The translations under genes were made by a program, and so were the position numbers. A stretch of 55,247 nucleotides of DNA, taken from assembly GCA_030612665.1 (NCBI GenBank), contig JAUWNL010000003.1, forward strand, positions 1 to 55,247, written 5' to 3'. Below the pieces are notes generated by a model, which was not told the origin of the DNA, searched no databases, and saw only the letters and a list, made by a program, of their open reading frames with translations. The first letter of the stretch is position 1. Each line of letters opens with the position of its first letter. Origin of the DNA: an archaeon (lineage in GTDB: Archaea; Nanobdellota; Nanobdellia; Pacearchaeales; UBA284). Below are positions 26,354-34,897 of the stretch, piece after piece.

Positions 26354-28081
26354 TTATATCCCCCAAGTTGCCTTAATTTTCCTTTTTATTTGAGCAATTT
26401 CTTGAAGTAATGAAATTTCTTCTTTGCTTAAATACTTTTTGTTTTCCCTGAGAATTCTAAACTCATCTTCATTTATATTAGAATAAAGGAAATCATCTTC
26501 TTTAACTTGTCTACCAAACGTGACTTTAGGAAGAGAAATAGCTAATTCTTTTCCTTGCCCTGCTTTATCAATATTCTTGCTTTCATGTTGCATTCCCTTA
26601 ACCTTGGCTATCTCATTCCCATCAGAATTCATTAACCTAACTCCACTTTTCAAGGTTCCAATCTCAATTCGAACACCAAAAACAGCAGGTTTGCTCTGTC
26701 TGAAACAACAATTTCTAAGGATCTTGAGCTTGCAAGGCATTGTAACTTTTTCAAGTTTCTTTCTTTCAATTTCAATGGCTTTCTTTTCTCGCCATTTAGC
26801 AAGTTCTTCAATAATATGATAAATAATCTCACTTTCAATGACATGAATCCTTTCATCACCAATTTCTTCTTCAATTGTGACATTAAAAGCAACAATAACA
26901 GCATTTAATGGCTGAGTTTCTAGATTTGCAATTGCAGAAACAACATTCCCCCGAGTGACATTGCCTATTCCAGCTTTACTGATTTTAATTCCATTTTTCC
27001 TAAGCAAGTCAATAAGTGCCTCAAGCGAGCCAAGACCTTCAGCCTTGACAATAATTCCTTTTTTATCCAGCTTAATTGATTCAGAAATTTCTTTTTGAAG
27101 TTCTTGTTTTAACTCATCAATATCTCCAGTCTTGACAGCAAAAGGCATCCCAGGAACTAGGCCTTCTGTTGTAGGCAGCTGAAGTCTTATCCCAGCTGCA
27201 GCAATAACCTCCTCGCGTAATTCATAACCTCTACCAAAAGGTAATGCCTCAAACAAAGACCTCATCTTTATTACAACAGGCTCTTCAAAACCAGCAACAA
27301 TAATTTCATCTTCCTTTTTCAACCTCCCATCATAAAGAATTGCTTCAATACAAGTAAACCCCTTCTCCTTTTTTATCTCAAGTATTGTGCCTTTTCCTTG
27401 CTCCCCAATATTTAATTTCCCTTTAAGGAATCTTTGAGCAAGTCCAGCAAGCATGACCATTAATTCAGGCAATCCCTCACAGGTTTTTCCAGAACAAGGA
27501 ATAAGCGCGAGTTGTTTGCTAAAATTTCCAATTCTATAAAAAATCTCAGAATCAAAACCAAGAGCATTAAACGAGCCCAGAATATTATAAAACTTTTTTT
27601 CAAAATCTTTTTTAGTGAATTCATTTTGACTTTCAATATTCTCGCGAAGATCCTCATGAATTTTCTTCCAACCAGCAATCCTATCAACTTTATTAAGAGC
27701 AACAATAAAAGGAATTTTATTCATTCGAAGCACTTCAATACTCTCACGAGTCTGCTCCATAATTCCTTCATTAATATCAACCACAAGAACAGCAAGGTCA
27801 GCAAGTGCTCCACCACGTTTCCGGAGATTTGTAAAAGCAGCATGTCCTGGAGTATCAATAAAAAGAAAACCAGGAATCTCTAAATCTATTCCAAACTTTT
27901 CAAGCAATGAGCCGCATTTCTCTTTAATATGATCTGAAGGAACTTGAGTAAAACTAATCTTTTGAGTAATAGCGCCAGCTTCTTTACCCGCAACACAGGT
28001 GCCCCTAATACTATCTAAGATAGTTGTCTTGCCATGGTCAACATGGCCTGCTACAGTCACGATTGGTTGTCTAATTTTCAT
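26354..28081 (-). CDS. infB: Translation initiation factor aIF5B
   Basis: MKIRQPIVTVAGHVDHGKTTILDSIRGTCVAGKEAGAITQKI; DTPGHAAFTNLRKRGGALADLAVLVVDI. Confidence 0.96.
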   Translation of the reverse strand: MKIRQPIVTVAGHVDHGKTTILDSIRGTCVAGKEAGAITQKISFTQVPSDHIKEKCGSLLEKFGIDLEIPGFLFIDTPGHAAFTNLRKRGGALADLAVLVVDINEGIMEQTRESIEVLRMNKIPFIVALNKVDRIAGWKKIHEDLRENIESQNEFTKKDFEKKFYNILGSFNALGFDSEIFYRIGNFSKQLALIPCSGKTCEGLPELMVMLAGLAQRFLKGKLNIGEQGKGTILEIKKEKGFTCIEAILYDGRLKKEDEIIVAGFEEPVVIKMRSLFEALPFGRGYELREEVIAAAGIRLQLPTTEGLVPGMPFAVKTGDIDELKQELQKEISESIKLDKKGIIVKAEGLGSLEALIDLLRKNGIKISKAGIGNVTRGNVVSAIANLETQPLNAVIVAFNVTIEEEIGDERIHVIESEIIYHIIEELAKWREKKAIEIERKKLEKVTMPCKLKILRNCCFRQSKPAVFGVRIEIGTLKSGVRLMNSDGNEIAKVKGMQHESKNIDKAGQGKELAISLPKVTFGRQVKEDDFLYSNINEDEFRILRENKKYLSKEEISLLQEIAQIKRKIKATWGI

Positions 28082-28227
28082 GCAAACTTAAAAGAAAATT
28101 AACTTTTAAATCTTACTTCTTTTTATGCCTTGTAGAAAGAGAATAAGAACACAAGATAAAGATAAATTTAGTTAACAAACAGAGCCCTCTTAGAAAGATT
28201 TAAGAATTAGAAAATTATATACTTTTT

Positions 28228-28560: not shown

Positions 28561-29385
28561 TTACCTAAAAACAATTCCAGCATAACCAACAGCAGTATTA
28601 TAATCCCCAGAAATATCTCCACTTGTATAATAATCAATGAGTTTGGCTTGCCATTTTTTGATTTTAGCTATTTCACTTAAAATTGTTATTCCATATATCC
28701 CACAAACAGTTGATTTTTCAGCTAAACTGTAGAAACCTTTAGAATCATTCTTTGAAATTTCAAGAATCATATTATTATCTAATCTAAACAGGTTTTCCTT
28801 AACATCCTTACTAAATGGAATAAATCCATATGAAGCACCATAATGAGTAAAATCAGATGAAACAATAATTGCTTCGTTAACAATAATCTCAGAAAGAATC
28901 CCAGCAATTTTCTTACAATCTTCATAACTTAATCCACCCAAGATAATAGAAACAATTTCAAATTTTTTCTGGCTAAGTTGTAAAAAAGGAAGCTGAACTT
29001 CAATACTATGTTCAGATTGATGAGCCTTTTCATTGACCTCAACAACAATCCTCTCTTTTTCCAGCTTTTTCATAATTCTCTCACTAAGACTTTTATTACA
29101 TTTGACAATTCCTAAAGGTGTTTCAAAATTCTCAAGACTAAAACATACTTTCGAGCCAATCCCAGAATGATTAACTCCCAAAATAATAAAATCTTTTTTA
29201 TTAGGAATCAAGCTAAATGTCTTGCCAGCAAGTTTCCCAGAAAACATGTATCCAGCATGTGGAACAATCGCAGCATGAACATTCTCCCTTTTACCAGAAC
29301 CAAGAAACTTCTCAACTTGTTTCTTTAATTCATCCTTGTCCGCAGGATAAAATTGACCTGCAACAATTGGTTTTCTCATAGTCAT
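28561..29385 (-). CDS. MEMO1 family protein
   Basis: RKPIVAGQFYPADKDEL, IVPHAGYMFSGKLAGKTF, ILGVNHSG, SSDFTHYG. Confidence 0.92.
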   Translation of the reverse strand: MTMRKPIVAGQFYPADKDELKKQVEKFLGSGKRENVHAAIVPHAGYMFSGKLAGKTFSLIPNKKDFIILGVNHSGIGSKVCFSLENFETPLGIVKCNKSLSERIMKKLEKERIVVEVNEKAHQSEHSIEVQLPFLQLSQKKFEIVSIILGGLSYEDCKKIAGILSEIIVNEAIIVSSDFTHYGASYGFIPFSKDVKENLFRLDNNMILEISKNDSKGFYSLAEKSTVCGIYGITILSEIAKIKKWQAKLIDYYTSGDISGDYNTAVGYAGIVFR

Positions 29386-29407
29386 GCAAAATTAAAAGAA
29401 AAAGCAA

Positions 29408-31724: not shown

Positions 31725-32984
31725 TTACTTCACTTCTTTTATCTCCTTTATCCCCATTTCTTTGAGCTGACTTTTGGGAATTCTCCTAATGAGTTTTTTC
31801 ATATCAAAAATCTTTCTCTGTGCTTTAGCATATAATCTCTTGTTCTTTACAAAGGTTTTTTTCCATGTTTTTTTGAATTTCTTAATATGTTTTTCAGGGA
31901 TATTCAATGGAGGCCCAGCAATAACATAATTTTTTTCTGGTTCTTTGTAAATAAAATAAAATTTTGCTTCTAGATTTTTCTCAGAAAATCCAAAAATACT
32001 TCTTATAACTTTAAAACCATTTTTTTTAAGAATAAATTGCAGATATTCATAGAATTTCCTTGTTTTGCTACCAGCAACATCAACTTTCTTTTTTAATGTA
32101 GTAACTTGAATTGTCACAAATTTTGCTTTGTTTCTCTTTGTTTCTTTCTTTAATGCTTCAATGTTTATTTCATGTTTAAAAAAATATGATTCTGAAGATC
32201 TTTTCAAGTATTTTTTGGCGACTTTAATAAATTTTTCAAGTGTCTTAAAACTAAGAGCAGCTGCAGCATTCCTATCTTTCTGAACAGGATCAATAAGAAT
32301 GATTGGTGAATGAAGTTTTGCTTTGTTTAATGAATGCATTACTTGTGCTTTGCTTGAATAATATTTCTTAGGATCAATAACTATTTTTTCTTTTCCATTC
32401 CATTTTGTCATTGCTCTTAGGAACTTCATGAATGAGCCATAATAACAAACAAGAACTTCAAGAACATAACCACTAAATCCGCGGATGTAGGATTCAGCTC
32501 CATAACAATCAGCACTATAGCTAAATGCCTTGGCAAGCCTAATTTCATCAGCAAGTTTCTTATTCTTTTTTATCTTACTTAGAATATAAGTGACATGAAG
32601 AGGCGAGACATCAGTAATATTTACTGCTTCTTCTGCTTTCTTGATTTTAAGTATTGGAACTAATTCAATTGTAATTTTATTGATTTTGACTTGAAAATAA
32701 TCCCTAGAACCATGAAGTCTTATTGCCTTGATTTTATGTTTTTTTAAAATCTTGCTTAGAAAATCAGCAAGTTTATGGCTCTGCTTAGCCATCTTATAAG
32801 GAAACATGACAAAAACATCCACATCATAACCTTTATCTCTCTTGACAAGAGTTTTCTTGGCATAACTTCCTCCAATAAAAAGTTCTATTCCTCTGCCTTT
32901 AATCTTCATAACTCTGTTTAGAGCTTCTTTTATCTCATCAAGATCTTTTTTCTCAGGCCTTATTTTTTCAAATACTTTTTTCAT
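31725..32984 (-). CDS. cca: CCA-adding enzyme (archaeal class I tRNA nucleotidyltransferase)
   Basis: IRPEKKDLDEIKEALNRVMK...ELFIGGSYAKKTLVKRDKGYDVDVFVMFP; catalytic GS...DVD. Confidence 0.93.
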   Translation of the reverse strand: MKKVFEKIRPEKKDLDEIKEALNRVMKIKGRGIELFIGGSYAKKTLVKRDKGYDVDVFVMFPYKMAKQSHKLADFLSKILKKHKIKAIRLHGSRDYFQVKINKITIELVPILKIKKAEEAVNITDVSPLHVTYILSKIKKNKKLADEIRLAKAFSYSADCYGAESYIRGFSGYVLEVLVCYYGSFMKFLRAMTKWNGKEKIVIDPKKYYSSKAQVMHSLNKAKLHSPIILIDPVQKDRNAAAALSFKTLEKFIKVAKKYLKRSSESYFFKHEINIEALKKETKRNKAKFVTIQVTTLKKKVDVAGSKTRKFYEYLQFILKKNGFKVIRSIFGFSEKNLEAKFYFIYKEPEKNYVIAGPPLNIPEKHIKKFKKTWKKTFVKNKRLYAKAQRKIFDMKKLIRRIPKSQLKEMGIKEIKEVK

Positions 32985-32986
32985 AC

Positions 32987-33400
32987 TTATTTCAACCCCT
33001 TTTTAATTATATAAATTAATTCCTTTATATCTTTTTCTAATTCTTCTGTAATTGAATGGAAAACAATTTCATCATCTATACTGCCATACTCATGAGCAAT
33101 TATATTTCTCATACTCTTTGCGTCTTTAAGTTTTTCTGTAAGTTCAGACGAAATTATTTTATTTTGTAAAAGAATATCAAATGCATGTAAATCACTTTCT
33201 GGAAGAGATAACCTTCTTTCTTTAATAAATAAAAATGTTAAATCAATTACTGCTTCTATAATTATTTCAGCATATCTCTCACATGCAGCTTTTGCCTTTA
33301 AATCGTGAATATATTCTTTTAGATTAATTGGTCTTATTTCATTAAGTTCAGATAAATATTTTTCTATATCTTTAATTTTATCTTTAATTCTTTCGTTCAT
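32987..33400 (-). CDS. hepT: HepT-like HEPN ribonuclease toxin (DUF86)
   Basis: SMRNIIAHEYGSID (RxxxxHxY); stop lies 2 nt from cca ATG. Confidence 0.9.
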   Translation of the reverse strand: MNERIKDKIKDIEKYLSELNEIRPINLKEYIHDLKAKAACERYAEIIIEAVIDLTFLFIKERRLSLPESDLHAFDILLQNKIISSELTEKLKDAKSMRNIIAHEYGSIDDEIVFHSITEELEKDIKELIYIIKKGLK

Positions 33401-33890
33401 ATAAAACTTTCCCCTTATTATCAATTTCTTTTTTTATTTTATCTGGAAGAATATTATAAACCTGTATTTCTATTTTTTTGTTTACTTTTCTTAAAATATC
33501 TAATCTAAATTGCATAGCTTCTTTTTTTGTAATTTGAAAAAATTCTACTGCAAGGTCTATATCAGAAGATAAAGTTAACTGGCGTTCTACTATTGACCCA
33601 AACAAAATAATTCTTTTTATTCTTTTGAAATATTTGCTTTCTAGAATAACTTCTTTTGCTTCGGAAATCATCTCTTTGATTATTGCTCCATGTTTGAGTT
33701 GAAAATCCTTAACAAATGGTGCAAGTGCATTAATTGCTTCAAACTTTTTTCTTATATCTCGAGAAAGCCTTGTTTTTTCTGAAGCTTTCAAACTCACTCC
33801 AAGCAATTGCTTCTCAATAATCTTTAACTCTCTCTTTCCAAATATTTTCCTTAGATTTTCGTCCTTTTTAACAACACTTAATAAATTCAT
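33384..33890 (-). CDS. mntA: MntA-like nucleotidyltransferase antitoxin
   Basis: RIILFGSIVERQLTLSSDIDLAVEF (GS-X10-DXD); overlaps hepT. Confidence 0.9.
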   Translation of the reverse strand: MNLLSVVKKDENLRKIFGKRELKIIEKQLLGVSLKASEKTRLSRDIRKKFEAINALAPFVKDFQLKHGAIIKEMISEAKEVILESKYFKRIKRIILFGSIVERQLTLSSDIDLAVEFFQITKKEAMQFRLDILRKVNKKIEIQVYNILPDKIKKEIDNKGKVLYERKN

Positions 33891-33906
33891 TTTATTATCT
33901 CCATTG

Positions 33907-33921
33907 TGATAATAGTTATCA
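33907..33921. promoter_or_regulatory. Inverted repeat between TATA-like box and mntA start
   Basis: TGATAA-TAG-TTATCA; TATA-like TTTAAATATA further upstream. Confidence 0.45.
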
Positions 33922-33999
33922 GCATAGCGATATATTTAAATCTTTCTTTTCTGGCCTTATTTTTTCTAATACTTTTTTCATTTCAGTTTCTTTTCTCAT
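33919..33999 (-). pseudogene. Truncated 5' remnant of cca
   Basis: ATG at 33999 encodes MRKETEMKKVLEKIRPEKKDLNISLC*; MKKVLEKIRPEKKDL matches cca start MKKVFEKIRPEKKDL (41/48 nt identical, 33934-33981 vs 32937-32984). Confidence 0.85.
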
Positions 34000-34111
34000 A
34001 TAACCTCAAAAGAATTGAAATTTAAAAAAGCTTGGTTATTCTCTTAATTATACTAACGAGTATATTGCCAAAAAATATTTAAGATAAGAATTTCTTTTAT
34101 TTTATATTAAA

Positions 34112-34897
34112 ATGACAAACTTTCATTTTGGTCCTGCTGGTCTCGGTGGTGTTAAAGAAGCAATTGGAAATCTTGAAAGATACAAGAAATTAGGTCTTGA
34201 TGCCTGTGAAATTGCTTTTACTTATCAAGTTTATATAAAGAAAAATTCTGATGCCAAAAAGATTGGCAAGGCTGCACAGAGGTTAGGAATAAAGCTTAGT
34301 ATTCATGCTCCTTATTATATTAACCTCGCAAGTAAAGAAAAGAAAAAGATTGAGGCAAGCAAAAGAAGAATTCTTGATTGTTGTGAGAAAGCTCATTGGC
34401 TTGGAGCAGATTATGTTGTGTTTCATGCAGCTTATTATAGTGGCAGGAATGAACAAGAAATTTATGAAATTGTCAAGAAAGAAATAATTGATATGCAGAA
34501 AATTATTAAACAGCGAAATTGGAAAGTGAAACTTTGTCCTGAAACAACTGGCAAGAAAAGCCAGTTTGGCTCGCTTGATGAATTGCTTAGACTTGCCAAA
34601 GAAACAGGATGCTTTTTTTGTGTTGATTTTGCTCATCTTCTTGCACGTGATGGAAAGATTAATTATGATTCAGTTTTTGGAAAGCTAAAAAATCTTGTGC
34701 ATATTCATTCTCATTTTTCTGGAATAGTTTATGGCAAGAAAGGTGAACAGAGACATGTTGTTACTGATAGTGAGAAACTTTTGCAATTGCTGAGATTTGC
34801 CAAGAAAAATCATGTCAAAGACATTACAATTATTAATGAAAGTCCTGATCCTGTTGGAGATTCAATTAAGGGCCTGAAGATGGCTTCTAAACTGTAA
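34112..34897 (+). CDS. nfo: Deoxyribonuclease/endonuclease IV (AP endonuclease family 2)
   Basis: LSIHAPYYINLAS, DYVVFHAAYY, CPETTGKKSQFGSLDELLRLA, FCVDFAHLLARDG, HIHSHFSG. Confidence 0.92.
   Translation: MTNFHFGPAGLGGVKEAIGNLERYKKLGLDACEIAFTYQVYIKKNSDAKKIGKAAQRLGIKLSIHAPYYINLASKEKKKIEASKRRILDCCEKAHWLGADYVVFHAAYYSGRNEQEIYEIVKKEIIDMQKIIKQRNWKVKLCPETTGKKSQFGSLDELLRLAKETGCFFCVDFAHLLARDGKINYDSVFGKLKNLVHIHSHFSGIVYGKKGEQRHVVTDSEKLLQLLRFAKKNHVKDITIINESPDPVGDSIKGLKMASKL

Follow-up and report, generated by a model that had tools for sequence, protein, structure and literature searches.

Results

An mntA-hepT pair ahead of cca

The window, that is the whole stretch of 55,247 nucleotides analysed here, is contig C4 of a 668-kb draft genome that is 84% complete. 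On its minus strand, a reading of the sequence and the list of open reading frames (ORFs) give the order short ORF, mntA, hepT and cca. The product of mntA (33384..33890) is a nucleotidyltransferase antitoxin of 168 aa that matches Pfam Polbeta (4.9e-14; 52.7 bits, above the cut-off of 26.9), and that of hepT (32987..33400) is a HEPN ribonuclease toxin of 137 aa, recognised by Pfam HepT-like (3.9e-27) and by NCBIfam HepT_toxin NF047751 (99.4 bits, above the cut-off of 60). Judged by sequence, the pair is a type VII (HepT/MntA) toxin-antitoxin cassette, a class in which MntA would neutralise HepT by AMP transfer. It has in common with known type VII systems the two-gene operon, the RX4HXY toxin motif (here RNIIAHEY) and the GSX10DXD antitoxin motif, the residues of which are invariant in an alignment of MntA relatives; it differs from them in a conserved N-terminal extension of MntA of ~80 aa, and in the score of MntA against the NCBIfam model NF047752 (42.2 bits, below the model's cut-off of 60). 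A single-sequence structure prediction of MntA, with a mean pLDDT of 49, was too poor for use.

Downstream, cca (31725..32984) opens with MKKVFEKIRPEKKDLDEIKE at 32984, 2 nt past the hepT stop; Pfam and NCBIfam assign its 419-aa product as an archaeal CCA-adding enzyme, the NCBIfam cca model being matched below its cut-off. Upstream, the short ORF (33919..33999) opens at 33999 with MRKETEMKKVLEKIRPEKKDLNISLC and runs into the module promoter, where its stop ends at 33919. Beyond it lies a divergent plus-strand gene for an AP-endonuclease-like TIM-barrel protein (34112..34897; Pfam PF01261, 1.4e-26), the start of which forms the boundary of what we read below as the old cca promoter region.

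The mntA promoter (33895..33946, minus strand; GAAAGA-TTTAAATA) comprises a BRE/TATA box, GAAAGATTTAAATA, followed by operator-like repeated half-sites (TATC/GATAA), and is common to other module copies. In 58 of the 69 related modules surveyed below, mntA is preceded by an inverted repeat that is exact over 5 nt, its arms 8 nt apart; the half-sites are GGTTA in 38 and GATAA in 19, a division into two classes that for the most part agrees with the MntA tree. Perhaps MntA is an autorepressor, its N-terminal extension of ~80 residues being a fused DNA-binding part.

The same genome holds a second mntA-hepT module (G000:C20:2907-3803; L002, L075), which has 72% DNA identity to the first, sits on a distant branch of the MntA tree, and is placed 1 nt ahead of a small gene opening MRKETRKEIKKE. 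By eye it too has a stub-like sequence (MRKERK), but the match was not significant.

A direct repeat brackets the pair

The short ORF and the start of cca share a direct repeat of 42 bp. Its left (upstream) copy lies at 33940..33981 and its right copy, read directly as the present cca start, at 32943..32984; aligned without gaps (33981-33940 against 32984-32943), they agree at 38 of 42 nt, with a start-to-start spacing of 997 and, between them, 955 bp made up of the mntA promoter, mntA and hepT. An earlier note on this DNA had reported the likeness as 41 of 48 nt, a count that adds two codons to the present match, and the likeness is real; the distance of 997 bp that it gave for two copies bracketing the toxin-antitoxin genes is borne out. 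All four mismatches within the 42 nt fall at third codon positions.

The repeat has a local alignment score of 64, against 45 for the best of 2000 dinucleotide shuffles and 36 for the next best place in the window. Searched against the whole 668-kb genome, the remnant region found only two significant matches, one to the start of cca, at E 1.9e-10, and one to 21 nt within the mntA promoter of the second module; the worry, voiced in the same note, that the similarity might be a common motif can be laid to rest for this genome. The final 7 nt of the match (GAAAGAT), where the promoter region overlaps the left copy, double as the start of the mntA BRE/TATA box, and because that box belongs also to other module copies, the precise point at which the remnant stops is ambiguous. 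Elsewhere in the window, another direct repeat of ~40 nt (28059-28098 and 29363-29402) lies at the starts of two genes that we take to be IF2/aIF5B-like and Memo-like; it may be a further scar of insertion, or the two gene starts may be alike by chance.

The upstream copy as the probable original start

The ORF that holds the upstream copy, MRKETEMKKVLEKIRPEKKDL..., has seven extra N-terminal codons (MRKETEM) after a GAGGT motif at 34007-34003. The present cca is seven codons short of this predicted start, and its N-terminus is the shortest of 22 orthologues compared: 35 residues precede its GGS motif, against 39-59 in the 21 others and 42 in a cca extended by the stub. Moreover, some orthologues and the stub read VLEKI where the present cca reads VFEKI, so that the Leu of the stub looks ancestral. 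Because the stub provides an N-terminus of usual length and an ancestral-looking residue, and the present cca is the shortest, the upstream copy is best read, from these comparisons, as the original cca start, with today's cca restarting at an internal Met (old Met8) right after hepT. When genome contigs were scanned for closer relatives of this cca, the matches were of 41-44% only.

The usual length of the stub N-terminus likewise upholds the earlier proposal that a truncated cca start was left on the far side of the module together with its old upstream region. There, a TATA-like TTTTTTAAAT (34020..34029) was read directly on the minus strand at 34029-34020, ~20-30 nt ahead of the stub ATG, and is a candidate for the old cca promoter; this element stands as first described, whereas the label 'leaderless' that came with it is uncertain because of the GAGGT motif upstream of the ATG.

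Repeats around related modules

Our survey took in 69 modules whose MntA belongs to the same subfamily (36 from the order, a further 33 from the class); in each, the sequence ahead of mntA was compared with that around and past the hepT stop, at a threshold score of at least 40. Seven of the 69, the cca locus included, reached that score with direct repeats of 20-78 bp that flank the module at its edges; among the 36 modules of the order, the cca locus alone gave a strong repeat at the DNA level. Mismatched pairings (n=1725) produced a single score of at least 40 (the maximum, 43), then 35, with a 99th percentile of 31, and control blocks of matching geometry, taken from other loci, produced none (0/461). 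Fisher's test of modules against these blocks gives p = 4.8e-7 (~5e-7), and against all controls pooled p = 2.6e-5, values that are descriptive, since the test regions and the threshold were set after the first cases had been seen. Some control blocks in the window and in module flanks did contain strong repeats, among them tandem paralogues, low-complexity sequence and one gene-start resemblance.

The duplicated targets vary. Besides the 42 bp at the 5' end of cca, they are a promoter region in G487 (68 bp, 66/68 identical), the 5' end of a gene in G376 (78 bp), and gene 3' ends in G470 (L124; 60 bp, an unnamed gene), G491 (41 bp), G291 (33 bp, 33/33 exact) and G464 (20 bp, 20/20 exact). Four of these genes we take, from our own reading of the sequences, to be ribbon-helix-helix-like (G376), TrmB-like (G491), TspO-like (G291) and lipoyl-synthase-like (G464). 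At all seven loci the copies lie at the two edges of the module: the left one ends at, or within ~60 nt ahead of, the TATA box, and the start of the right one falls in the interval from 38 nt before to 10 nt after the hepT stop. At G470, the duplicated gene end occurs a third time, in degenerate form, ~270 nt past the hepT stop and beyond a small ORF on the reverse strand, as though one site had been struck by two insertions.

An eighth module, in G044, has a stub of its downstream LigD-phosphoesterase-like gene at the protein level, found by translated and position-specific tests; in G083 and G123, weak stub-like matches to downstream gene starts were not significant. The remaining 61 of 69 modules have no detectable duplication, and given this number, either the duplications decay or other routes of insertion exist. 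Among the genomes searched for an empty site, none was a close relative lacking the module, either for cca or for G487, G464 and G291.

Several modules stand directly before pgk-like genes (G203, G175, G149, G058, G083) or LigD-phosphoesterase-like genes (G179, G147, G044, G169, G123). As these modules come from several separate branches of the MntA tree, the recurrence suggests that preferred insertion sites exist besides shared descent. In the same archaeal class, 4 of 61 vapC-like loci (L238, L203, L171, L187) have flanking repeats of 29-95 bp around or near the gene; the same mode of insertion may be general for toxin-antitoxin pairs here, tandem paralogues being another possible source of the vapC-like cases.

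Discussion

Ten other genomes of the same family were searched, with no match at cca, and contain no comparable module, except for G009, which has a relative elsewhere in its genome (53% identity), and the nearest MntA (74%) comes from another family of the order; on these grounds the module at cca probably arrived horizontally. The absence of a comparable module from the family genomes, together with the recurrence of the same arrangement around related modules, also agrees with the first claim made for this locus, that mntA-hepT is inserted at the 5' end of cca, and we infer an empty, module-free cca site before it. We consider it quite likely that the locus records the insertion of a cassette without a transposase, with a target duplication of ~42 bp, and that it is one case of a recurrent mode. 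Between the copies, the ORF list and Pfam reveal no transposase gene, only mntA and hepT; of the 25 longest inverted repeats, not one links the two ends of the cca-locus module; and duplications of 20, 33, 41, 42, 60, 68 and 78 bp are not the short, fixed-length ones left by a DNA transposon or insertion sequence. Since the duplications are long and variable, the module ends vary, and neither a transposase nor, in the cca-locus module, paired inverted repeats are found, the cassette fits insertion with a long target duplication, and the recurrent scar suggests that it moves without any transposase.

How might such an insertion have proceeded? A horizontally acquired cassette, composed of its own promoter, mntA and hepT, would have entered the 5' end of cca and duplicated ~42 bp of it, corresponding to codons 8-21 of the original gene. 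The original start and its promoter would then have been stranded upstream as a dead stub, and the duplicated piece on the other side would have rebuilt a cca that restarts at old Met8, two nt past the hepT stop, and that is probably co-transcribed as part of the toxin-antitoxin operon. The molecular step may have been break repair or template switching rather than the work of a dedicated transposase, and the four differences between the copies may stem from drift. Related cassettes would insert at gene starts, gene ends or promoters, with variable duplications of 20-78 bp, the surviving insertions presumably being those whose duplication leaves both neighbours intact. Related modules frequently abut the next gene's start codon exactly, and this tight fit may be explained by the duplication, as the insertions to survive would be those that rebuild the neighbour.

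The earlier note had favoured a diverged allele carried with the module over a fresh target-site duplication. On that account the module came joined to the diverged cca of a related archaeon, the stub is resident and the present cca start foreign, and homologous recombination in cca closed the right side whilst a microhomology join at AAAGAT closed the left (homology-facilitated illegitimate recombination). Such a route would suit the AAAGAT shared by cca and the module's BRE/TATA box, and the confinement of all four cca differences to third codon positions, although the latter pattern is weak, at ~0.05 if the stub drifts and cca is constrained, by our own rough expectation of 47%. It would suit two other loci as well: the G044 stub matches its module-free congener G046 at 38/54 but its own downstream copy at 34/54, and the G376 copies are identical in their first part and then diverge in a coding-like manner; moreover, the LigD-phosphoesterase and pgk associations are partly common to related modules. 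However, the duplications in the sister modules G291, G464 and G487 are fresh, and because those of G291 and G464 are identical throughout, no donor allele is needed; the present cca, for its part, is 5'-shortened relative to its orthologues, as expected when it is cut from a resident gene. We regard allele import as unlikely at cca; as the copies in G044 and G376 are diverged and coding-like, it may operate by recombination in some cases. A mosaic test of G044, whose congener G046 is diverged, showed a divergent N-terminal region and no clear breakpoint.

Two further readings and one technical concern bear on the proposed insertion with target duplication. A functional coupling would start from HepT-type toxins attacking tRNA and cca repairing tRNA 3' ends, with the stub as a leader peptide; Songailiene and colleagues reportedly found, in 2020, cleavage near the tRNA 3' end. 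The closeness of cca to hepT speaks for coupling, as does the digestion of tRNA reported for HEPN toxins of the HepT type (cited in a passage of PMC11586414), but we set tRNA repair aside as the reason for the adjacency on the ground that related modules adjoin unrelated genes (pgk, lipA-pdhA, rpe, ligD-like); with the stub explained without a peptide function, coupling is very improbable. As for a chance resemblance, or a motif shared by AT-rich, Lys/Glu-rich coding sequence and a promoter box, the genome is AT-rich and the last 7 nt of the match do coincide with the module box, but the alignment score (64 against a shuffle maximum of 45), the uniqueness in the genome and the recurrence at other modules exclude it for practical purposes. 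The genomes are drafts, yet diverged repeats in different contexts are not easily explained as artefacts of assembly.

That MNT-HEPN modules are mobile and can enter operons was known before: Makarova et al. 2009 (PMC2701414) describe such mobility, with recent operon insertions, for example in Thermus thermophilus HB8 versus HB27. Gene pair and operon insertion are the same as here, but the passage in question gives no target duplication, stub or rebuilt start, and a literature search that covered few subscription journals found no report of such duplications around MNT-HEPN pairs. Passages on restriction-modification gene complexes describe insertion with long target duplication (Nobusato et al. 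2000, reviewed in PMC3874152; also PMC3031569), and the likeness extends to a toxin-antidote-like pair, the lack of a linked mobile element, and long, variable flanking direct repeats. As those passages have it, restriction-modification duplications are of the order of 100 bp and the mode was shown by a pair of sister genomes, whereas the duplications of the archaeal type VII pairs span 20-78 bp and their mode is shown by recurrence. In Microcystis, a parDE-like pair lies between direct repeats of 152 bp (PMC7935541); these, too, bracket toxin-antitoxin genes, but they contain inverted repeats, are separated from the genes by 120-147 bp, and are not presented as duplicates of the end of an adjacent gene.

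On the question of how toxin-antitoxin pairs pass from one chromosome to another in the absence of a mobile element, a scar that recurs around a single module family offers direct evidence of the mode of insertion. The scar also suggests which of the two copies came first, and gives an account of how a foreign pair can come to abut the start codon of a housekeeping gene, cca for example, and leave that gene intact. Two warnings for annotation follow: a short ORF just upstream of a module of this kind can be a dead gene start, and the gene downstream may be using a secondary start codon. More tentatively, and with rather more doubt than confidence, we posit that in small-genome archaea toxin-antitoxin pairs, both type VII mntA-hepT and vapBC-like, may be mobile by themselves without a transposase, rebuilding their neighbour through long, variable duplications, becoming its operon partner and upstream promoter, and so perhaps making their own loss costly.
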